From contig NZ_JQLL01000001.1 of NCBI RefSeq assembly GCF_000744185.1, positions 1,827,001 to 1,891,000 of the forward strand: 64,000 nucleotides of DNA, in the 5' to 3' direction. The notes under the pieces are model-generated. The model was not told the DNA's origin. It did not search any database and saw only the letters and a program-made list of their open reading frames with translations. The position numbers and the translations under genes were made by a program. Positions 16,963 through 30,275 of the stretch are shown piece after piece; positions within the stretch are counted from its first letter, which is position 1; each line of letters opens with the position of its first letter. The DNA comes from Carnobacterium funditum DSM 5970 (GTDB taxonomy: Bacteria > Bacillota > Bacilli > Lactobacillales > Carnobacteriaceae).

Positions 16963-17532
16963 ATGACAAAGAGAAATGAAAAAGAAGTGGCTTTTGAGCG
17001 AAGAGAGGAACTCATCAACAGACTAAAAACTCGCTTTGATAAAAATAGTAGGCGTCATGAACACTTTGAATGGGAAAAAATAGAAATGAAATTAAATGAA
17101 GATGGTGGAAAACTGTGGTCGCTTAATGAGATGGAAAAAACGGGCGGAGAACCAGATGTCATTGGTTATGATGATAAGGAAAATATCTATATCTTTTGTG
17201 ATTGTTCACAAGAAAGTCCTAAAGGCCGTAGATCAATTTGCTATGACTTTGAAGGATTAGAATCGAGAAAAAAGAATAAGCCAGAACAAAATGCGGTTGG
17301 TATGGCAGCGGAAATGGGCATAGAACTGTTAACCCCAGAACAATACAAAGAACTACAAAAAGTGGGCGTTTTTGATACGAAAACATCAAGTTGGGTGAAA
17401 ACGCCCGTTGATATTAGAAAACTCGGAGGGGCTCTTTTTTGTGATTACCGATTCGGACAGGTTTTTTTATACCATAATGGAGCAGAATCTTATTATGCGG
17501 TGCGAGGATTTCGTGGTTTATTGAGAGTATAG
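16963..17532 (+). CDS. DUF4256 family protein
   Basis: 189 residues from the ATG at 16963, which follows AAGGGAGCGAGACAGT; an upstream ATG at 16939 lacks a site. The sequence WEKIEMKL, LWSLNEMEKTGGEPDVIG, FCDCSQESPKGRRSICYD and a C-terminal FRGLLRV are the pattern of DUF4256, a soluble family in many bacteria with no assigned reaction. The conserved Cys, Asp and Arg residues suggest an enzyme, but this is only inference. A DUF2254 gene follows after 35 bp and may be co-transcribed. Confidence 0.85.
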   Translation: MTKRNEKEVAFERREELINRLKTRFDKNSRRHEHFEWEKIEMKLNEDGGKLWSLNEMEKTGGEPDVIGYDDKENIYIFCDCSQESPKGRRSICYDFEGLESRKKNKPEQNAVGMAAEMGIELLTPEQYKELQKVGVFDTKTSSWVKTPVDIRKLGGALFCDYRFGQVFLYHNGAESYYAVRGFRGLLRV

Positions 17533-17567
17533 TTTTTTAGTTTCTGGAATGGAAGGAATGAAGTGAG

Positions 17568-18875
17568 ATGAAGATAAAACAAGGAATTGAAAATATAAAA
17601 AAAAGCATTTGGCTGTACCCAGTCGCTTATAGCATACTAGCTTTATTGCTAGCGAGTGTCGTGATTTTGTTAGACAATGGTTATCTATTTGATATGCGAC
17701 CTTATTTACCAGAGTTTTTATTAACTAGTGCTAGTCTTGCAAAAGCTGTTTTAGGTGTTATTTCAAGTGCCTTTATTACGATTACAACCTTTACCTTTTC
17801 TACAACAATGGTTGTATTGAGTATCTACATGAGTGAATTTTCACCTCGTGTGGTAGAAAACTTTTTGTCTGATGAGCGGACTATGAAATCATTTGGTATT
17901 TTCGTTAGTGGATTTATTTATAGTATTACTTGTATGCTTTTTATACGAGAAGAAATTTTAACAAAACCCATTCTTGCAGGCACAATCGGAGTTATTTATA
18001 TTATTTTTGGCTTATTTAATTTTATTTTATTTATTAATAGTGTTGGGAAATATATTCAGGCTAGTAATTTAATTAATCGGCTATATAATCATGCTCAAGA
18101 GGTAATTGCTTCTTATAAAAAAGAAATTAGTCAATATGAGTTTGTTTCAACGGTAGGGGTGGAACTTCAAGAGCCGGGCTACCCTATTAATGTGATGGAA
18201 AAAGGTTATATCCAACAAATTGATTATGAGCAATTATTTGAAGTTGCAAAAAAACACAATGTAGTTATTAGACTCAATAGAATGATTGGTGAGTTTGTAA
18301 CAAATGAAGCAACGATGGGTGAATTATTGTCTGATTCATCTAATGCTGATTCTAAGATAGTCATTGAAGAAATTCATGAGTTTATGTTAGTGGGAATGAG
18401 ACGAACGGAAGACCAAGATTTTAATTTTTCTATACAAAAAATTGTTGAAGTAGCCTTGAGATCATTGTCAGCAGGCATAAATGATCCGAACACAGCGATT
18501 TTCTGTATTAATAGTCTGAGCCTGTTGGTAGGGGAGTTTTGTACGTTAGAAGAAGGGTATATTGTGATGTGCGAGAAAGACATAGAAGGAAAAGTATATC
18601 GAGAAACCTATAACTTGGATAGAATGTTACGCGATACTTTTCTTCAAATCATTCACTATGGTCAAGGAGACGTGCACGTCATGCTAGCAGTATTAAAAGC
18701 ATACCATCATATGACAAGTGAAGCAGAGGGTGAGAATAAAAAGGTGATTAAAAAACAAGCGAAGTACCTTTTTGATCGTCTGCTTAAAAAATACGATGAT
18801 ACGATGGAAAGACAAATGATAACAGAGGCTTACGAAGCAATTCAAACATTAGAAGTTCGTTCTTCAAATCTATGA
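17568..18875 (+). CDS. DUF2254 membrane protein
   Basis: 435 residues. Four transmembrane helices fill the first third (about residues 16-36, 58-86, 110-127 and 138-157), with the family's TTFTFSTTMVVLSIYMSEFSPRV-like segment after the second helix. A large cytosolic region follows with VGMRRTEDQDFNFSIQKIVEVALRSLSAGINDPNTA, the DUF2254 hallmark. No function is known; a channel or transporter has been suggested by topology only. It lies 35 bp after the DUF4256 gene on the same strand. Confidence 0.88.
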   Translation: MKIKQGIENIKKSIWLYPVAYSILALLLASVVILLDNGYLFDMRPYLPEFLLTSASLAKAVLGVISSAFITITTFTFSTTMVVLSIYMSEFSPRVVENFLSDERTMKSFGIFVSGFIYSITCMLFIREEILTKPILAGTIGVIYIIFGLFNFILFINSVGKYIQASNLINRLYNHAQEVIASYKKEISQYEFVSTVGVELQEPGYPINVMEKGYIQQIDYEQLFEVAKKHNVVIRLNRMIGEFVTNEATMGELLSDSSNADSKIVIEEIHEFMLVGMRRTEDQDFNFSIQKIVEVALRSLSAGINDPNTAIFCINSLSLLVGEFCTLEEGYIVMCEKDIEGKVYRETYNLDRMLRDTFLQIIHYGQGDVHVMLAVLKAYHHMTSEAEGENKKVIKKQAKYLFDRLLKKYDDTMERQMITEAYEAIQTLEVRSSNL

Positions 18876-19012
18876 TGTTTAAAATAGACTAAAGTTTATT
18901 TTTATCAGAGGAGATCCTATTTAAAAAGAAGAAAAGCAAAAGGTGAATCTATTCCACTTTAAGGCAAGAAAGTAGCATCCAGTCGCTTCGTTTTTTCTTT
19001 TCTTTTCTATAT

Positions 19013-19516
19013 CTATATTTTTCTACTATCATATGCCCAGTGAAGAAGGGTTTGTCTTTGTTTTTTCCTGCAGCTTTGGTCTTTATTTTCGCAATTTTTT
19101 TTGATTGCTCCGGCATGTCTTTTTATGGCTTTCCATCTTTTAATTTGGATTTGGTCTTCTTCAGGTAATCTGCGACCATAGTAATAACGACAATACCATT
19201 GAAACCAACCTCGCGGGTCGGCTGAATGAATCCACCCTTTTTTTTGCCACGTTTCTAACGACAAGGAGGCATCAACTTGATAATAGTTTAGAGAAATATC
19301 TTTCTTTTCAGGAGACAATTTAGCATGTTCAAACCAATCGCTTGGAAATTCATCCGTACAATCAGTCATATATTTTCCACCGAAGATACCTAACTCCAAG
19401 AGTTCTTTGGGAGACAGTTCAGGTTTAAATTCGGAATCAAAGTTTTCGCCCGGTTCTTGGGTTAATTCATATTCCCCTTTTTGCATGTTATCATTAATCT
19501 TGATTATTTTTTTCAT
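19013..19516 (-). CDS. Conserved protein of unknown function, 167 residues
   Basis: A soluble, aromatic-rich protein. Its N-terminal half reads SPKELLELGIFGGKYMTDCTDEFPSDWF. Then comes a Trp/Tyr-dense centre (DPRGWFQWYCRYYYGRR) and a basic C-terminus with two Cys (NCENKDQSCRKKQRQTLLHWAYD). I have an impression of similar uncharacterised proteins in other bacteria but cannot name a domain family. It is a single-gene unit with AAAGGACG before the ATG. The even spread of charged and aromatic residues argues for a real protein. Confidence 0.75.
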   Translation of the reverse strand: MKKIIKINDNMQKGEYELTQEPGENFDSEFKPELSPKELLELGIFGGKYMTDCTDEFPSDWFEHAKLSPEKKDISLNYYQVDASLSLETWQKKGWIHSADPRGWFQWYCRYYYGRRLPEEDQIQIKRWKAIKRHAGAIKKNCENKDQSCRKKQRQTLLHWAYDSRKI

Positions 19517-19786
19517 AGTAACGTCCTTTCTTTGGATAGAATAAGAAGATGGATACTCAAAAAGAGAAACAGCTGCTTTTTATTGTCTAAATAAGTCTAC
19601 CTTACTTTCTCAATTAGTGATAGGAAGATAACTTTTTTGCTGAAACAGATGAAAAGCGAATAGCAAGTACTTATCTTTTTTTCGGGGTAATCTTATCTAA
19701 TTAAGGGATAAGAGAGAAATTCAATGAAAATAAGAGTATAATAAAGCATGACGACACAAAGTTAGTGAGTCAGGAAGTGATGAAAA

Positions 19787-20833
19787 ATGAAACCAACAAT
19801 AACGTATGAAGAAATAGTAGCAGAAAATAAAAGCCACAGAGTTGGCTTTGTAGATGTTCGCAGTCCCAAAGAACACGAATTTTCTACGATTCCTGGGGCA
19901 GTTAATATTCCTGTTCTAGACAATGAGACACGTGCGACAGTAGGCACCTTATATGTAAAAGGGCAAGTAGAAGAAGCCAAACAATATGGTATAGAGTGGG
20001 CTGCTAGTCAACTTGCTAGTACGTATACTCGTTACCAAGAATTATTGAACCAATACGATGAAATAGTTATTTTTTGTAGTAGAGGCGGAATGCGTTCCAA
20101 TTCTATCTTTTCCTTATTGAAAGCATTAGGACTACCAGTAAGCAGATTGAGTGGAGGGTATAAAGCCTATCGTCACTATATCAATGAGCGTTTAGAAACA
20201 GAATTAACGAAGGCAACATTTGTGACTCTTTATGGGCTTTCGGGTAGCGGAAAAACGGAAATTTTAAAAGAACTATCAAAAAAAGGGGCAAAAGTATTAG
20301 ATTTGGAAGGTTGCGCTAATCATAGAGGGTCTATGTTAGGAAGTATCGGCTTGTCTGAACCACATTCTCAAAAAGCATTTGAAAGTCTCCTTTTTGAAGC
20401 TAGTCAAGAATGGCAAGAGGGAGAAGTTGTTTTTACTGAAGGTGAAAGCAAACGGATTGGAAATGTTGTCATCCCTTCAAGTCTATTTTCTGCCATTAAA
20501 GAAGGAAAAGAAATTTATATAGAAGCGCCACTAGATTTGCGTGTCGCTCAGATTCATCGTGACTATGTAAAAGAAGACAACCAAGAAGAACTATCCGATT
20601 CCTTGGGTGCTTTAAAAGCATTTGTAAAAGAAGAGCGAGTCAATCAATTTCAAGAACAAGTGATGAATGGTGAAGTAGATTTAGTTATTGAAAGTCTACT
20701 TGTTTCTTATTATGATCCTCGTTACAATCACCATAAGACACAACGGGACCTAACACTTGTTAGTTATGACGCTAAAGAAACGGCAGAAAACATACTAGAA
20801 TGGCAAAAAGAAAGCGAGAAAATTGAAAAATGA
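19787..20833 (+). CDS. mnmH: tRNA 2-selenouridine synthase
   Basis: 348 residues in two parts. The N-terminal rhodanese domain (about 1-130) has the active Cys in FCSRGGMRS (C97). The C-terminal P-loop domain starts at GLSGSGKT (150-157). The enzyme (SelU/YbbB) replaces the sulfur of 2-thiouridine at the wobble base of Lys, Glu and Gln tRNAs with selenium from selenophosphate, through a geranylated intermediate. The next gene, selD, overlaps its stop by 4 bp and makes that selenophosphate, so the pair defines the selenouridine trait. AGGAAGTG precedes the start. Confidence 0.94.
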   Translation: MKPTITYEEIVAENKSHRVGFVDVRSPKEHEFSTIPGAVNIPVLDNETRATVGTLYVKGQVEEAKQYGIEWAASQLASTYTRYQELLNQYDEIVIFCSRGGMRSNSIFSLLKALGLPVSRLSGGYKAYRHYINERLETELTKATFVTLYGLSGSGKTEILKELSKKGAKVLDLEGCANHRGSMLGSIGLSEPHSQKAFESLLFEASQEWQEGEVVFTEGESKRIGNVVIPSSLFSAIKEGKEIYIEAPLDLRVAQIHRDYVKEDNQEELSDSLGALKAFVKEERVNQFQEQVMNGEVDLVIESLLVSYYDPRYNHHKTQRDLTLVSYDAKETAENILEWQKESEKIEK

Positions 20834-21858
20834 AAACGCAATGGATGGATGGTTTATTTATATGCGGTGGCTGTAATGCAAAAATCGGTCCCGGAGATTT
20901 AAATGGAATTTTAGCGGCGTTGCCTAAGCAAACAGATGAAAATTTATTGGTAGGTTTTGATTCTGCAGATGATGCAGCGGTTTATCAACTTAGTGAAGAC
21001 TTAGCGATGATTCAAACGATGGATTTTTTCCCAGCTATGGTCAGTGATCCACGACTGTTCGGTCAAATCGCAGCAGCCAATGCGATGAGTGATGTCTTTG
21101 CAATGGGTGGAGAAGTGATGACAGCGATGAATATCGTATGTTGGCCAGAAGAGCAACCGTTAGAAATATTATCTGAAATTCTGGCTGGTGGACAAGAGAA
21201 AGTCCAAGAAGCTGGTGGTATTCTAGTCGGAGGACATTCTATTCACGATTCTTTACCAAAGTATGGCTTATCTGTCTCAGGGAAAGTACATCCTGAAAAA
21301 ATTTACAGAAATGATACGTGTGAAGAAGAGGATTGCTTGATACTGACAAAACCTCTAGGAACAGGTATTGTTACAACTGCTTATAGTGCTGGTGAAATGG
21401 GAGAGGAAGAGTTTCAAGCAGCGGCGATATCTATGACCACATTAAATATCTATGCGTCTACTATTTTTAAAAAGTATACGGTACATAGTTGTACAGATGT
21501 AACCGGATTTGGCCTACTGGGACATCTGAATGAGATGTTAACGGATCGTTTCAGCTGTGTGTTAGAAAGCTCAGCGATTCCTATTTTAAAAGGAGCCTAT
21601 AAAGGCGCACAAGAATTTCTTGTGACAGCTGGTGGACAAAGAAATCGAAACGCATTAAGCTCTCAGGTAAAGTTTGAGTTTGACGATTACGCTTTAGAAG
21701 AAGTGCTCTTCGATCCTCAAACTTCTGGGGGCTTATTAGTCAGCGTGCCAAAAGCAGTAGCCAATGAATTGTTGCATGAATTACAAACTAAAGGGATAAC
21801 AAGTGAGATAATTGGAGTCGTCACAAAACGCTCTGAATATAAAATGACAGTCTATTAA
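20830..21858 (+). CDS. selD: Selenide, water dikinase
   Basis: 342 residues. The glycine-rich N-terminus CGGCNAKIGPGDL carries C15 and K18, matching the essential Cys and Lys of SelD; the residue is Cys here (TGT), not selenocysteine. The rest has the AIRS-kinase fold with FDSADDAAVYQL and VGGHSIHDS (magnesium and ATP binding). It turns selenide, ATP and water into selenophosphate. The ATGA overlap with mnmH couples translation. No selA, selB or selC was seen here, so selenocysteine use is not indicated by this window. Confidence 0.95.
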   Translation: MKTQWMDGLFICGGCNAKIGPGDLNGILAALPKQTDENLLVGFDSADDAAVYQLSEDLAMIQTMDFFPAMVSDPRLFGQIAAANAMSDVFAMGGEVMTAMNIVCWPEEQPLEILSEILAGGQEKVQEAGGILVGGHSIHDSLPKYGLSVSGKVHPEKIYRNDTCEEEDCLILTKPLGTGIVTTAYSAGEMGEEEFQAAAISMTTLNIYASTIFKKYTVHSCTDVTGFGLLGHLNEMLTDRFSCVLESSAIPILKGAYKGAQEFLVTAGGQRNRNALSSQVKFEFDDYALEEVLFDPQTSGGLLVSVPKAVANELLHELQTKGITSEIIGVVTKRSEYKMTVY

Positions 21859-21894
21859 CCAGTCCTTAAAAATAGGAAAGAAGGAGGAAAAGCT

Positions 21895-22518
21895 ATGCAA
21901 GAAATAAACGCACTAGGAAACGCTTGTCCAATGCCAGTTATTTTAACAAAAAGAGCTATGAAAGAATTTCCCAATGAAGATTTGACAATCTTAGTAGACA
22001 ATGAGATTGCTACTCAAAATCTCACTAAAATGGCAGATCAATTGGGATTTAAAACAACAGTAGAAAAAAAAGGTGTTTCTTATTATATTGTTCAGTTAAC
22101 CAAAGAAACAACGGATGTCAACTTGGCTAGTCAAGCTGCGGAACAAGAGCCAGCCTTTTCAAAAAAAGAGAATGGAGCTCAAAAACAACCTTATATCGTT
22201 AGTATTCATTCTGAAACCATTGGCGATGGATCCGAAGAATTAGGTTCAACTTTAATGAAAAGCTTTTTCTTTTCTTTATCAGAACAAGAACAATTACCTA
22301 AAAAAATTCTCTTTTATAATGGCGGAGCTAAATTGACAGCAGAAGGGTCTCCTGTTTTGCAAGATTTGCAAGCAATGGCTAGTGATGGCGTAGAAATATT
22401 AACATGTGGTATTTGTGTAGAATTCTTTAATTTTGAAGACAAGCTTATGGTAGGAGAAGCTACTAATATGTACCGCATTGTTGAATTGCAAAGCCGCTAT
22501 AAAACGGTCTCTCCATGA
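21895..22518 (+). CDS. yedF: Selenium-linked YedF family sulfurtransferase-like protein
   Basis: 207 residues. The N-terminal TusA/SirA-like domain has the hallmark ACPMPVILTKRAM with the conserved Cys at about residue 10. The C-terminal half is a DsrE/F-like domain (LTCGICVEFF). This two-domain YedF form occurs mainly beside selD and is thought to carry selenium or persulfide to SelD. An AAGGAGG lies 7-8 bp before the ATG. The DUF3343 gene starts 4 bp before its stop. Confidence 0.9.
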   Translation: MQEINALGNACPMPVILTKRAMKEFPNEDLTILVDNEIATQNLTKMADQLGFKTTVEKKGVSYYIVQLTKETTDVNLASQAAEQEPAFSKKENGAQKQPYIVSIHSETIGDGSEELGSTLMKSFFFSLSEQEQLPKKILFYNGGAKLTAEGSPVLQDLQAMASDGVEILTCGICVEFFNFEDKLMVGEATNMYRIVELQSRYKTVSP

Positions 22519-22796
22519 TCAATCGCAAACATTACGGGATCGTTGTATTCCCGAGTTCATCAGCTGCCTCACAAGCTGAAATTAAAATCGGTGAAAATGG
22601 CTGGCATTGTCGTTTGATTCCTATTCCCGAACAAATTTCAGCAGGTTGCGGTTTGGTATTGCAACTTTCGATAGAGGATTTAAAAGAAATTGAAGCATTT
22701 ATCACGAAAGAAACGGTTATTTATGATGAAATCTATGAAGTGATGGTTTCAAAAGAACGCAAAAAAACTATTTTGCCTTGGCAACAACAAGGATAA
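22515..22796 (+). CDS. DUF3343 protein
   Basis: 93 residues. This small single-domain family has the pattern F-P-S-S-S-A-A near residue 12, IPIPEQISAGCGLVL in the middle with a conserved Cys, and a ferredoxin-like alternation of strands and helices. DUF3343 proteins lie next to yedF and selenium or sulfur genes in many Firmicutes; a role in handling perselenide is assumed but unproven. It overlaps yedF by 4 bp and is followed 10 bp later by the desulfurase gene. Confidence 0.87.
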   Translation: MINRKHYGIVVFPSSSAASQAEIKIGENGWHCRLIPIPEQISAGCGLVLQLSIEDLKEIEAFITKETVIYDEIYEVMVSKERKKTILPWQQQG

Positions 22797-22806
22797 GGAG
22801 GCAGCG

Positions 22807-23973
22807 ATGTATTATTTTGATAATAGTGCAACTACACTGATTAAGCCGCCTCAAGTAGCCGAGGCAGTGTACCACGCTATCCAAAACCAAACGATTGGAA
22901 ATCCTGCTCGCGGCAGTCATGCACCGGCACTTCAAGCATTACGTCAAGTCGAGCAAACGCGCATGAAAATTGCCCGATTATTTAAGGTACAAGATGCTAG
23001 CCAAATAAGTTTCACCTCAAATGCTACGTTTGCTTTTAATTTGCTCTTAAAGAGTCTATTAAAAGCAACAGATGCAGTGATTACAACAAAAAATGAACAC
23101 AATTCGGTACTAAGACCACTCTATCAATTAGAAAAAGAAGGCATGCAGCTAGATTTTCTTGCATTAGATGAGATGGGACGGGTACGATTGGACCAATTAG
23201 AAAGCTTGTTAAAAGAAAATACCAAAGCCATCATCATCAATCATATGTCGAATGTCACTGGTCAAATGATCAACTTAAAAAAGGTTGGAGTATTTTGTCA
23301 AAAGCATAGAATTTTACTGATTGTGGATGCTGCACAAAGTGCCGGTGTAGTTCCCATTGATATGGTTGAGATGCATATCGATGCGTTGTGTTTTACGGGT
23401 CATAAAAGTCTTTATGGTCCTCAAGGAACAGGTGGGATTGTTTTAAATCATTCTAACCTTAACTTGGAAACGGTATTCAGTGGAGGAAGCGGAAGCCATT
23501 CTTATGACAAAGAAATGCCACAACAGATGCCTGGTTTTTTTGAACCAGGAACCTTGAATGTGCATGGTTTGGCAGGATTGGAAGCGGGTTTGGATTATGT
23601 AGCACAGCAATCTGTAGAATCGATTCAAAAAAAATTACAAGAATTGACGTTGTTTTTTCTTGAAAAAGTATCTTCTGTTCCTGAGATTCAAGTTTATGGT
23701 TGTAATTTACAGCAAATTAAAAAAAATCCACAAGAACATGGCGCAATTGTTAGTTTGAATTTAGTTGGCTGGAGTTCAGGAGACTTAGCTGATATTTTGT
23801 ACGAAGACTACGATATATGCGTGCGTTCAGGCGCGCATTGTGCTCCTCTTGTACACCAGCATTTCCAAACAGTCGATAGAGGCATGGTTCGTTTCAGTTT
23901 TTCTAGTTTTAATACAAATGAAGAAATAAATGCAGCTATTCAAGCATTGACAGAGTTGGCTTTAGAAAATTAA
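22807..23973 (+). CDS. Cysteine desulfurase-like aminotransferase class V
   Basis: 388 residues. It has the PLP lysine K200 in FTGHKSLYGPQGTGG, the PLP-ring His and Asp in KNEHNS and VDAAQSAG, and a catalytic-loop Cys, C345, in RSGAHCAP. It belongs to the SufS/CsdB-like group (selenium-dependent subgroup) that takes sulfur from cysteine or selenium from selenocysteine. As the last gene of the selenium operon it likely supplies selenium to SelD, perhaps through YedF. AAGGAGG precedes the start. A terminator-like hairpin follows. Confidence 0.9.
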   Translation: MYYFDNSATTLIKPPQVAEAVYHAIQNQTIGNPARGSHAPALQALRQVEQTRMKIARLFKVQDASQISFTSNATFAFNLLLKSLLKATDAVITTKNEHNSVLRPLYQLEKEGMQLDFLALDEMGRVRLDQLESLLKENTKAIIINHMSNVTGQMINLKKVGVFCQKHRILLIVDAAQSAGVVPIDMVEMHIDALCFTGHKSLYGPQGTGGIVLNHSNLNLETVFSGGSGSHSYDKEMPQQMPGFFEPGTLNVHGLAGLEAGLDYVAQQSVESIQKKLQELTLFFLEKVSSVPEIQVYGCNLQQIKKNPQEHGAIVSLNLVGWSSGDLADILYEDYDICVRSGAHCAPLVHQHFQTVDRGMVRFSFSSFNTNEEINAAIQALTELALEN

Positions 23974-24012
23974 AAAAAAGACGAACTTTTGAGTCAAACT
24001 AAAAGTGTACTT

Positions 24013-25518: not shown

Positions 25519-26026
25519 ATGAGTAAAGCCGTATATCAATTAGAACCATTAACTTGTCCGTCTTGTATCAAAAAAATCGAATCAACTTTAAGTAAAACAG
25601 CAGGGGTTGAATCAGCGAAGGTAATGTTTAATTCTAGTAAAGTGAAAACAGAATCGATGAATCAACGATGCGCCGGCTATTGCAACAGCAGATATTGGTT
25701 TAGCCATGGGTGAAGGTGGAACAGATATTTCAATGGAAACAGCAGATGTCGTGTTAATGGCAGATAAATTAATGCAGTTTTCCCATGCCTATTCATTATC
25801 GAAAGCAACAACTAGAAATATGAAGCAAAATATAGTCGTTGCAGTTGGTGTTGTAGTTATGTTATTAAGTGGTGTCTTGATGGGAAGTGTCCATTTGGCA
25901 GTGGGGATGTTTATTCATGAAGCTAGCGTACTAGTGGTTATTTTAAATGCTATGCGTTTGATCCGCTTCAATCATAAAAATAGGCAAGCAACTAATAAGT
26001 TGGATACGGTACTTGTAAAAGCTTAA
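25519..26026 (+). pseudogene. Heavy-metal P-type ATPase, internal deletion remnant
   Basis: The intact start of a metal ATPase (a heavy-metal-associated domain with LTCPSCIKKIEST, CxxC at about residues 14-17) runs to about 25660. It is then joined, out of frame, to the C-terminal end of such an ATPase: NDAPAIATADIGLAMGEGGTDI, then two transmembrane helices. The join lies at about 25655-25665. All of the middle (actuator, the CPx helix, phosphorylation site) is gone. The ribosome site is intact. This is a roughly 1.3 to 1.6 kb deletion, judged by normal ATPase length, and not a functional pump. Confidence 0.88.
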
Positions 26027-26188
26027 TCAAAAAAATCAAAAAAATTACAAAAAGGATGCAAAGAAAATAAACTGGACCCAAAGTTAGATTGAACGTTAAC
26101 TTATATGGTGCAGTTTTTTTTATTGGACCAAAAACTACCAATGAAGTTTATTTCTTTAAATACTCAAAATCTATAGAACAAAGCACCA

Positions 26189-27441
26189 TTGATTAAATTA
26201 GTCAATGAAGCAGAAGAACAAAAATCACCAACTCAACTTTTCACAGATAAGTTTGAAGCGGAGTTTGTTCCTTCCGTTTTAATTTTAGCCTTTTCACTCA
26301 ACTTTGCTTTCTTATTTTTAAATGAATCCTTTAGTGAAAGCTTTTATCGTACGATGGCTGTTCTTGTAGCAGCAAGTCCTTGTGCATTAGCTATCTCTAC
26401 ACCGAGTGCTGTTCTAAGCGGCGTAGCTCGAGCTTCGCAAAGTGGTGTACTCATTAAAGGAGGTAGGCTGCTAGAAAACTTAGAAGAATTAACTGCATTA
26501 GCTTTTGATAAAAAAGGAACTCTTACAGAAGGTCTGCCAAAACTGACTAAAGCTATTCCCTACAAAAATACAACTAAAGAGGAATTGTCGACAGCATCTT
26601 TTGCAGTTGAACGATTAAGCGATCATCCTTTAGCTGCTGCAATTGACAAAGGAGTATAAAAACAAATAGACACAGATTCGCTAGAGGAGTCGTCTAATCT
26701 GCAAGCTATTATAGGCCGTGGAGTAACAGCTAATTGGCAAGGAGAAAAAATTTATGTCGGAAATAGAGGCTTATTTGAAGGGGAGCTCTCTGTTTCTATT
26801 TCTGAAGACTTATCCGAAATCTTACAAGAGTAAGAGGGAAAAGGATATACTGTTATGCTAGTTCGCAATGAATCAGCTTTCTTAAGTGTATTAGCTTTAA
26901 TGGATACACCTCGAGAGGATGCCAAAATGGTCATTTCTCGTTTGAAAGAGATTGGGATTAAACGAGTGAGTATGTCAAAAGGAGATAACCAGCAAGTTGC
27001 TGACAGCGTAGCCAAAGCGATTGGCATAACTGATGCTTTAGGTAGTCTTCTTCCAGAAGGTAAAGTAAGTGCAAGTGAAGAGATAAAGAAAAAAGAATCG
27101 AAAGTAGCTATGGTTGGAGATGGAGTGCATGATGCACCAGCAATCAAGAAAAGTACAGTTGGGATTGCAATGGGTGCTGCAGGCTCAGATGTTGCTTTAG
27201 AAACGGCAGATATCGCATTGCTGTCAGATGATTTGACTATTTTTCCGTTTGCAATTGCTTTGAGTCGAAAGAGTAAAAAATTATAAAACAAAACGTATGG
27301 ATTAGTCTAAATGTCACGGCTCTCTTAATTCCAATTACAATTTTCGGCTTTATTGGAATTGGACCAGCCGTTATTTTTTATGAAGGATCGACTTTAATCG
27401 TTGTATTAAATGCCTTACGATTACTTGGCTTCAAAAAATAA
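26189..27441 (+). pseudogene. Second heavy-metal P-type ATPase, decayed
   Basis: Fragments in order show a CadA/ZntA-like pump: VAASPCALAISTPSAVLSGVARAS (CPx helix), FDKKGTLTEG (the DKTGT site with T changed to K), SDHPLAAAI, then TAA at 26657-26659, TAG-free stretch with NRGLFEG, another TAA near 26830, SMSKGDNQQVAD (normally TGDN), VGDGVHDAPAI (normally VNDAPA), and a frameshift before the final helices near 27285. The N-terminal half is missing. Changed catalytic residues besides the stops show it has been dead for some time. Confidence 0.9.
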
Positions 27442-29501: not shown

Positions 29502-30275
29502 CTAGTTAGCCGGGACTTTATCTTTATACTTGGTTAAAAGATAAGCTGCGAGCCAAGCGGTAATGGGTATAATGAGAATTGCACCCGTACCGATACAGAA
29601 TATAGAAACTATTTCTGAACTGAAAACTTTCGAATTAATGACTTCACCAAAAGTATACGCTAAATCTTTAAACCATAATATCAATGCTAAATATCCGCCA
29701 ATGAATGCAAAAAACAAGGTATTTGTAGTTGTACCTAAAATATCTTTGCCAACATTCATACCAGATTTGAAAAGATCGTAGCGATTTAATAAAGGATTAC
29801 GTATATATATTTCATTCATCGCGGAAGAAATAGAGATGGCAGTATCTGTGATGGCTCCTATCGCTCCCATGATTATTGTGCAAATAGCAATCGCAACAAA
29901 ATCTACCCCTACGTATAATGTGAAAGACGTGAGATCTTCTATTTCTTCTATGCCAAATCCTTGTAGCATAGCTCTTTCAACAATTATAAAAATAAGAGCA
30001 ATTAAAAGAAGTAGCGTGATGAGTGTAGCTACGAAAGCAGTAATAGATTTGAGATTAATACGATTGATATAAAATAGATTGATGCAACTAATAATTATAG
30101 AAGCTATTAATGTGATGAAAATAGGATTAAACGTTTGAACAGTCATAAAAAATACAGTGACAAATAAAACACAAAAATTTAAAAATAGTGCCGTAAATGA
30201 TCGTACTCCTTTTTCACCGCCAATGAGTTTCATTAATATAAATAAAATGATCATCAAAAAAACTAATACGTTCAT
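29502..30275 (-). CDS. YibE/F-family membrane protein, second of pair
   Basis: 257 residues with seven or so predicted membrane helices. GAIGAITDTAISISSAMNEI followed by FKSGMNVGKDILGTTTNTLFFAFIGGYLAL is the YibE/F signature. It overlaps the upstream YibE/F gene by 4 bp (ATGA). Such tandem pairs are common in Lactobacillales and probably form a heteromeric transporter; the substrate is not known. It is complete and in frame, unlike its partner. Confidence 0.88.
   Translation of the reverse strand: MNVLVFLMIILFILMKLIGGEKGVRSFTALFLNFCVLFVTVFFMTVQTFNPIFITLIASIIISCINLFYINRINLKSITAFVATLITLLLLIALIFIIVERAMLQGFGIEEIEDLTSFTLYVGVDFVAIAICTIIMGAIGAITDTAISISSAMNEIYIRNPLLNRYDLFKSGMNVGKDILGTTTNTLFFAFIGGYLALILWFKDLAYTFGEVINSKVFSSEIVSIFCIGTGAILIIPITAWLAAYLLTKYKDKVPAN

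Follow-up and report, generated by a model that had tools for sequence, protein, structure and literature searches.

How selenium, whose reduced form selenide is toxic and must be distinguished from far more abundant sulfur, is handed to the selenophosphate synthetase SelD is the question raised by a five-gene operon in Carnobacterium funditum DSM 5970. Delivery of selenium to SelD in bacteria is unsettled, although a mammalian carrier, PRDX6, was shown in 2024 (PMC11327102). The operon occupies positions 19787-23973 of the window, by which we mean the whole stretch of 64,000 nucleotides analysed (contig NZ_JQLL01000001.1, positions 1,827,001 to 1,891,000), and encodes MnmH, SelD, YedF, a DUF3343 protein and a desulfurase-like protein, the last three referred to below as helpers. 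An earlier note on this DNA had proposed that DUF3343 and YedF deliver selenium to SelD or MnmH. The central idea of selenium delivery is old and already in print for both proteins; what is new is a comparison covering 395 genomes of Lactobacillales, which adds testable signatures and narrows the action to SelD, DUF3343 and YedF most likely working, on the evidence of gene distribution within Lactobacillales, at or before SelD and not at MnmH. The features are as follows, with lengths in amino acids (aa) and family scores in bits.

19787..20833, + strand: mnmH (selU/ybbB), 348 aa; NF008750, 354.6 bits against a cut-off of 241
20830..21858, + strand: selD, 342 aa; TIGR00476, 369.6 bits against a cut-off of 125
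21895..22518, + strand: yedF, 207 aa; TIGR03527, 209.4 bits against a cut-off of 110
22515..22796, + strand: DUF3343 (PF11823, now Se_S_carrier), 93 aa; 67.2 bits against a cut-off of 25
22807..23973, + strand: cysteine desulfurase or selenocysteine lyase-like gene, 388 aa; TIGR01977, 411.4 bits against a cut-off of 377
19698..23981, + strand: stretch kept in two congeners, by blastn against their loci L105 and L098
24013..24051, + strand: candidate terminator, a hairpin with a T-rich run after it; -16.9 kcal/mol, z -3.42

The operon and its one known outlet

The five open reading frames (ORFs) are intact, lie on one strand and form a single tight unit. ATGA overlaps are present at the mnmH/selD and yedF/DUF3343 junctions, with gaps of 36 bp between selD and yedF and 10 bp between DUF3343 and the desulfurase gene; with all family scores over their cut-offs, these coordinates confirm the overlapping unit described earlier. 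MnmH also matches a second family over its full length (TIGR03167, 317.5 bits, cut-off 219.75). The conserved cysteines are intact: MnmH has a rhodanese CSRGG motif with Cys97 (codon 20075-20077), besides a Walker A motif GLSGSGKT from residue 150; the SelD active-site motif CGGCNAK covers residues 12-18 (20863-20883) with cysteines 12 and 15; YedF carries ACPMP, of the CPxP type, with Cys11 in its TusA domain and CGIC with Cys171 and Cys174 in its DsrE domain; DUF3343 has Cys45 (22647-22649) and Cys32 (22608-22610), and the desulfurase an RSGAHC motif with Cys345 (23839-23841). The roles of MnmH Cys97 and Walker A, of the SelD active-site cysteine and lysine and of the desulfurase catalytic cysteine are those we take to hold for their families. 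The desulfurase belongs by cut-off to TIGR01977, the family of EF2568, but falls below that of the selenocysteine lyase SclA (NF040779, 314.3 bits against 525), and its preferred substrate may be selenocysteine or cysteine. For DUF3343 the family name Se_S_carrier suggests a putative carriage of selenium or sulfur.

Which selenium-using systems SelD could serve was investigated in the host assembly (2.35 Mb, with a completeness rating of 100%). For the selenocysteine (Sec) machinery the highest-scoring matches remain below cut-off, at 51 bits against 268 for SelA, 196 against 242 for SelB and 40.9 against 47 for tRNA-Sec. The SelB match is EF-Tu and the SelA-like match a 376-aa protein, weaker SelA and SelB matches not having been gone through singly; at the eight of 14 weak tRNA-Sec places that were fetched, ARAGORN finds an ordinary tRNA-Leu, -Ser or -Gly. 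YqeB and the molybdenum hydroxylase domain PF02738 give no match over cut-off in the host genome. The genome carries tRNA-Glu(UUC), -Lys(UUU) and -Gln(UUG), which selenouridine modification usually targets. With SelD and MnmH found and SelA, SelB, tRNA-Sec and YqeB below cut-off or not found, the genome has a selenouridine-only selenium trait, and selenouridine is the sole known outlet found for SelD. The absence of selenocysteine genes noted previously thus holds at these cut-offs, the hydroxylase outlet suggested as a check does not appear over cut-off, and gene content supports the claim of a complete gene set from selenium donor to selenouridine tRNA.

Helper genes and the two kinds of SelD

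Across the 395 genomes selD scores over cut-off in 91. DUF3343 (PF11823) is found in 70 of these 91 and YedF over cut-off in 69, compared with none of the other 304 genomes for either protein, and this tie upholds the selenium part of the earlier proposal. The same counts bear on two other explanations. It is very improbable that the three helpers mainly move sulfur, feeding MnmA for 2-thiouridine at tRNA position 34 (s2U34) as TusA-TusBCD-TusE do or serving the exchange of sulfur for selenium, since the 304 selD-less genomes, nearly all of which presumably have s2U34, lack DUF3343 and YedF, and the block of helper genes also stands beside Sec and hydroxylase genes, where the product is not s2U. 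What speaks for sulfur is that YedF is built of TusA-like and DsrE/TusD-like domains, that excerpts of Lin 2015 leave a sulfur role open, and that outside this order, according to the same paper, DUF3343 can occur where SelD is lacking. A second explanation gives YedF and DUF3343 a part in redox control or detoxification, roles that Lin 2015 suggests for YedF; they would hold selenide in its reduced state or bind excess selenium, with no ordered relay. It finds support in a CGxC pair present in all 72 YedF rows (68 DUF3343 and 72 YedF sequences, those inside the fetched stretches, were aligned). Such a role would not need linkage to SelD, yet neither protein occurs over cut-off in the 304 genomes without it, and the desulfurase is usually part of the same block (57 of 75 loci); we regard this explanation as unlikely.

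Outlets were searched for in 80 of the 91 selD-positive genomes, the excluded ones being nine of 11 from g33, the group of Trichococcus, and two of six from g39. Among the 80, mnmH is present in 37, yqeB in 22 and selB in 39, and the single genome without any outlet is a draft assembly in which a contig end truncates selD. mnmH is absent from 39 of the 59 tested DUF3343-positive genomes, 22 of which have Sec only, 14 the hydroxylase only and three both. Several outlets occur together in 16 DUF3343-positive genomes, four with two SelDs and 12 with one; a dedicated SelD for each outlet is therefore not required. As a separate observation, the four two-SelD genomes carry SelDs of different classes (L048 and L110 in G338, L056 and L111 in G378, L060 and L125 in G171, L065 and L022 in G314), each beside a different outlet, either Sec and hydroxylase or selenouridine and hydroxylase.

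SelD falls into two kinds that differ in their neighbours. Kind A has the motif GGCGCK and lies directly before mnmH in 19/19 loci, a twentieth being cut by a contig end; neither YedF nor DUF3343 is found beside selD in any of the 19, over about 1.5 kb on each side or to the contig end, with four seen further out. The 18 genomes with kind A only, 17 of them with mnmH, lack both DUF3343 and a YedF over cut-off; TusA-like stretches do occur in some of them, within other frames that are mostly long. Kind B, with the motif CGGCN(A/S)K or SGGCGAK or a GGU form with an in-frame TGA, is represented by 75 loci in 73 genomes. Within 4.5 kb of kind B selD, YedF is encoded at 71 loci, DUF3343 at 67 and the desulfurase at 57, and DUF3343 occurs somewhere in the genome in 70 of the 73 (exceptions G146, G155 and G257). 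By coordinates, from which the context labels were assigned by hand, the outlet neighbouring kind B is mnmH at 16 loci (15 within 4.5 kb and one about 6 kb away on the same contig), yqeB at 19 and selB at 36, with four unplaced. The usual orders are desulfurase-selD-yedF-DUF3343 followed by yqeB, and selD-yedF-DUF3343-selB-desulfurase; the motif SGGCGAK is found at all 19 yqeB-linked loci. The block thus stays linked to a single kind of SelD, irrespective of the outlet.

In a tree of 93 SelD rows, computed with the motif columns removed and without G372 (whose selD is frameshifted) and G115 (contig end), the kind A, yqeB-linked and mnmH-linked SelDs each lie on one side of one branch. A quick SelD tree hinted at an origin of the mnmH-linked block from within the Sec-linked ones, an idea that was dropped because a tree holding the Sec-linked SelDs and the four unplaced rows together had the higher likelihood (approximately unbiased test, p-AU 0.867). 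Holding both mnmH-linked kinds of SelD together was likewise not rejected (p-AU 0.716). The SelD tree therefore gives no direction of outlet change.

These distributions also bear on the proposal that DUF3343 and YedF act on MnmH, helping to hand over selenophosphate or acting on a tRNA intermediate. Both genes share the window operon with mnmH, and the additional cysteine of DUF3343, Cys32, is present in 16/16 mnmH-linked blocks and in none of the 52 others. The mnmH-linked rows are one SelD clade, however, so that Cys32 may be a single inherited change, and we consider action at MnmH highly improbable. The choice left by the earlier note between SelD and MnmH is narrowed to SelD or earlier steps because 39 of the 59 tested DUF3343-positive genomes lack mnmH, because the block also stands beside yqeB and selB, and because the 17 genomes with mnmH and kind A SelD have no DUF3343. 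Since the helpers track which kind of SelD is present rather than which outlet, action at or before SelD is the simplest reading, and the operon is probably a selenium supply line with one outlet, in which the helpers would feed SelD and SelD would serve MnmH.

Several observations weigh against this supply line. Each context class corresponds to about one SelD clade, so that the evolutionary events are few and the counts are not independent; Fisher tests on genome counts overstate the case through shared ancestry. In two of the 19 kind A selD-mnmH pairs (G171 and G314) a more distant desulfurase-like gene lies after mnmH. The evidence for the pattern comes from a single order, and the tie is looser outside Lactobacillales: among 14 control genomes PF11823 scores over cut-off in Escherichia coli and Methanocaldococcus jannaschii, in E. 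coli without YedF over cut-off, and E. coli SelD is of the GCGCK kind. The fold match of DUF3343 is generic, to the common ferredoxin-like fold (best Foldseek E 0.019, best Z 7.6), with no family assigned. Lin 2015 (PMC5322559), as excerpted, reports DUF3343 in organisms that lack SelD.

Signature residues, conservation and surroundings

Pro38, Cys45 and Gly46 of DUF3343 (window numbering) are invariant in 68/68 rows; in place of the class-specific Cys32, a CGxC motif occurs in 14 of the 19 yqeB-linked rows and in 0/49 others. In YedF, CPxP is found in 63 of the 72 rows that all carry CGxC. The DUF3343 model, built with 13 sequences at a mean predicted local distance difference test score (pLDDT) of 84.7, has the order beta-alpha-beta-beta-alpha-beta, with Cys45 predicted in the loop preceding the third strand; no meaningful relative of solved structure was found by sequence or profile (best E 0.43 and 0.5). 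By fold search the YedF model, the best of five whose pLDDT ranged from 52.9 to 79.7, consists of a TusA/SirA-like and a DsrE-like (DsrE/TusD-type) domain joined by a low-confidence linker, and the best model has a pLDDT of 79.7.

A further signature concerns the 12 of 91 selD genes in which an in-frame TGA takes the place of the active-site cysteine codon, for example L054, L072, L088, L091, L116 and L119, all 12 in genomes with selB. In the ten of these genomes where YedF is seen whole it is DsrE-only, the TusA domain being gone; nine of the ten lie in fetched stretches and one 34 kb from selD (G224), while G181 has a YedF match truncated at a contig edge and no YedF was found in G257. YedF is full-length in all 61 kind B genomes with cysteine SelD. 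A desulfurase is encoded within 4.5 kb of TGA-selD in 0/12 cases, one of them on an 8-kb contig and the rest of those genomes not having been searched, as against 57 of 63 cysteine-form kind B loci; DUF3343 is kept in 10 of the 12 genomes. The link of TGA-SelD to a DsrE-only YedF and the lack of a nearby desulfurase may be regarded as a lead, but one from a single clade, the 12 TGA-SelDs forming one tree group (Shimodaira-Hasegawa-like approximate likelihood ratio test 97) with long branches flagged. According to PMC11327102, SEPHS2 seems better able to use selenide without the carrier owing to its Sec residue, a remark that would fit the TGA-SelD pattern yet is no test of it.

All five genes are under purifying selection, with dN/dS of 0.05-0.24 against three relatives, although the selD value against L120 rests on only 157 codons since that selD is frame-split. 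Homology with the congeners, at 81-82% DNA identity, starts at 19709 (L098) or 19698 (L105) and ends at 23981 in both, so that the five genes are inherited together; in L105 the upstream stretch 16963-19561 is homologous too. The identical five-gene order is found in a member of another family (G372, locus L120), where selD is split across two overlapping frames by a frameshift or sequencing error. The 12 named loci with DUF3343 comprise Carnobacterium sp. HKST-UBA02 (75% identity), nine Trichococcus, Pisciglobus halotolerans and one record titled Sedimentibacter. The candidate terminator sits outside the conserved stretch and its hairpin was not picked up by the consensus terminator scan; consensus scans were near shuffle level (18 promoters against a mean of 14.5, 3 terminators against 3.1). 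No Rfam element, riboswitches included, reaches the gathering score in the window, and no extra TusA genes were found in the fetched stretches.

Adjoining the operon at 19013-19516, on the minus strand, is a gene for a 167-aa protein that is 83-94% identical in four of the seven relatives searched, two of the four belonging to other genera; at E 0.001 neither Pfam nor NCBIfam gives a match for it. This anchor gene was not found in the congeners without selD (G018 and G135), and no empty site could be read there. Downstream, a DUF1541 lipoprotein gene and ORF pieces resembling, by eye, a broken heavy-metal P-type ATPase (25519-27286) lie between the operon and 29522, while in one congener (G041, locus L105) the homologue of the gene at 29522 follows the operon almost directly.

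A probable selenium supply line and its closest counterparts

For each transfer step, for the order of steps and for selenium rather than sulfur as the cargo, the scheme given here is what we infer. The desulfurase would lift selenium as perselenide from selenocysteine or selenium-loaded thiols; YedF would accept it on Cys11 of the TusA domain and pass it on through CGIC of the DsrE domain; DUF3343, a small ferredoxin-like protein, would carry it by the conserved loop cysteine to the CGGC active site of SelD, which would make selenophosphate, and MnmH would exchange sulfur for selenium in s2U34 of tRNA Lys, Glu and Gln. By analogy with the sulfur relay that serves the same tRNA position, the path from desulfurase through the TusA and DsrE domains of YedF and DUF3343 to SelD and MnmH is likely, the placing of YedF before DUF3343 being a guess.

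The IscS-TusA-TusBCD-TusE-MnmA sulfur relay is alike in its desulfurase, TusA, DsrE/TusD-type protein and small carrier and in the tRNA position served, and IscS-TusA and TusBCD structures are among the YedF fold-search matches. The operon differs in that YedF fuses the TusA and DsrE domains, in the proposed last carrier, DUF3343 (TusE was not looked for), and in the acceptor, SelD.

A broader possibility, put forward tentatively and in our view doubtful, is that the SelD active-site residues set the size of the carrier line needed, with outlets swapped behind a conserved front end. CGGC or SGGC SelD would depend on the desulfurase, a YedF with TusA domain and DUF3343; selenocysteine SelD would have dispensed with the TusA domain and with a desulfurase of its own; and GGCGCK SelD of Lactobacillales would take free selenide without a carrier line. 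Our confidence in this possibility, low at the outset, was lowered slightly in view of the PF11823 match in the E. coli control.

The operon is a small natural system that brings all candidate carriers together, has a single known outlet and lies in a genome where no Sec machinery reaches cut-off; deletion of a carrier should therefore be readable in one modified nucleoside. More broadly, the helper genes have the look of a common selenium supply line, one that related bacteria couple to different selenium-using systems, a view partly in print. Haft and Self 2008 (PMC2276186) place both YedF and the desulfurase of family TIGR01977 "probably prior to selenophosphate synthesis" and, like Zhang 2008 (PMC2432076), tie YedF to SelD; the latter suggests that the SirA-like protein may serve all three selenium traits. 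DUF3343 was proposed as a selenium-trafficking chaperone by Lin 2015, a proposal repeated in a 2022 review (PMC9312934), so that the roles the earlier note called not established already had provisional versions in print. NifS-like proteins supply selenium to SelD, and NifS-SelD fusions are known (PMC4561486), while a 2016 survey (PMC5029168) describes passage of the selenouridine trait from Bacillales to one Lactobacillales species. In the open-licence literature DUF3343 is named in four papers, two of which deal with selenium; YedF, TusA and selenium came together in only one paper, on a sulfur disproportionator, and the excerpts of open-licence papers gave no report of the SelD-kind split, the class-specific cysteines or the link between TGA-SelD and DsrE-only YedF.

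Among systems described, EF2563-EF2568 of Enterococcus faecalis resembles the operon, with the TIGR01977 desulfurase (EF2568), SelD (EF2567) and the TIGR03527 YedF (EF2566) adjacent in the excerpted account; EF2565, listed as hypothetical, sits where relatives carry DUF3343 and may be its counterpart. The outlet of that block is the third selenium trait, the hydroxylase (EF2563/EF2564), whereas that of the Carnobacterium operon is MnmH, and SelD beside the E. faecalis type of outlet, yqeB, has SGGCGAK in place of CGGCNAK. The model of Lin 2015 shares with ours the families, a delivery role and a conserved cysteine, YedF being seen there as a selenium redox protein; it found no selenium-specific branch of DUF3343 and reports the family in organisms without SelD, compared with 0/304 selD-less genomes with DUF3343 in Lactobacillales.

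Human PRDX6 (PMC11327102) is alike as a cysteine-perselenide carrier from selenocysteine lyase to the selenophosphate synthetase SEPHS2. Its carriage was demonstrated experimentally, that in Carnobacterium being putative, and PRDX6 is not known to be related to the helpers. The two-gene selD-mnmH operons of other Lactobacillales have the same outlet with a GGCGCK SelD and no YedF or DUF3343 beside the pair; these relatives with the same outlet and without the helpers form a control built into the comparison.

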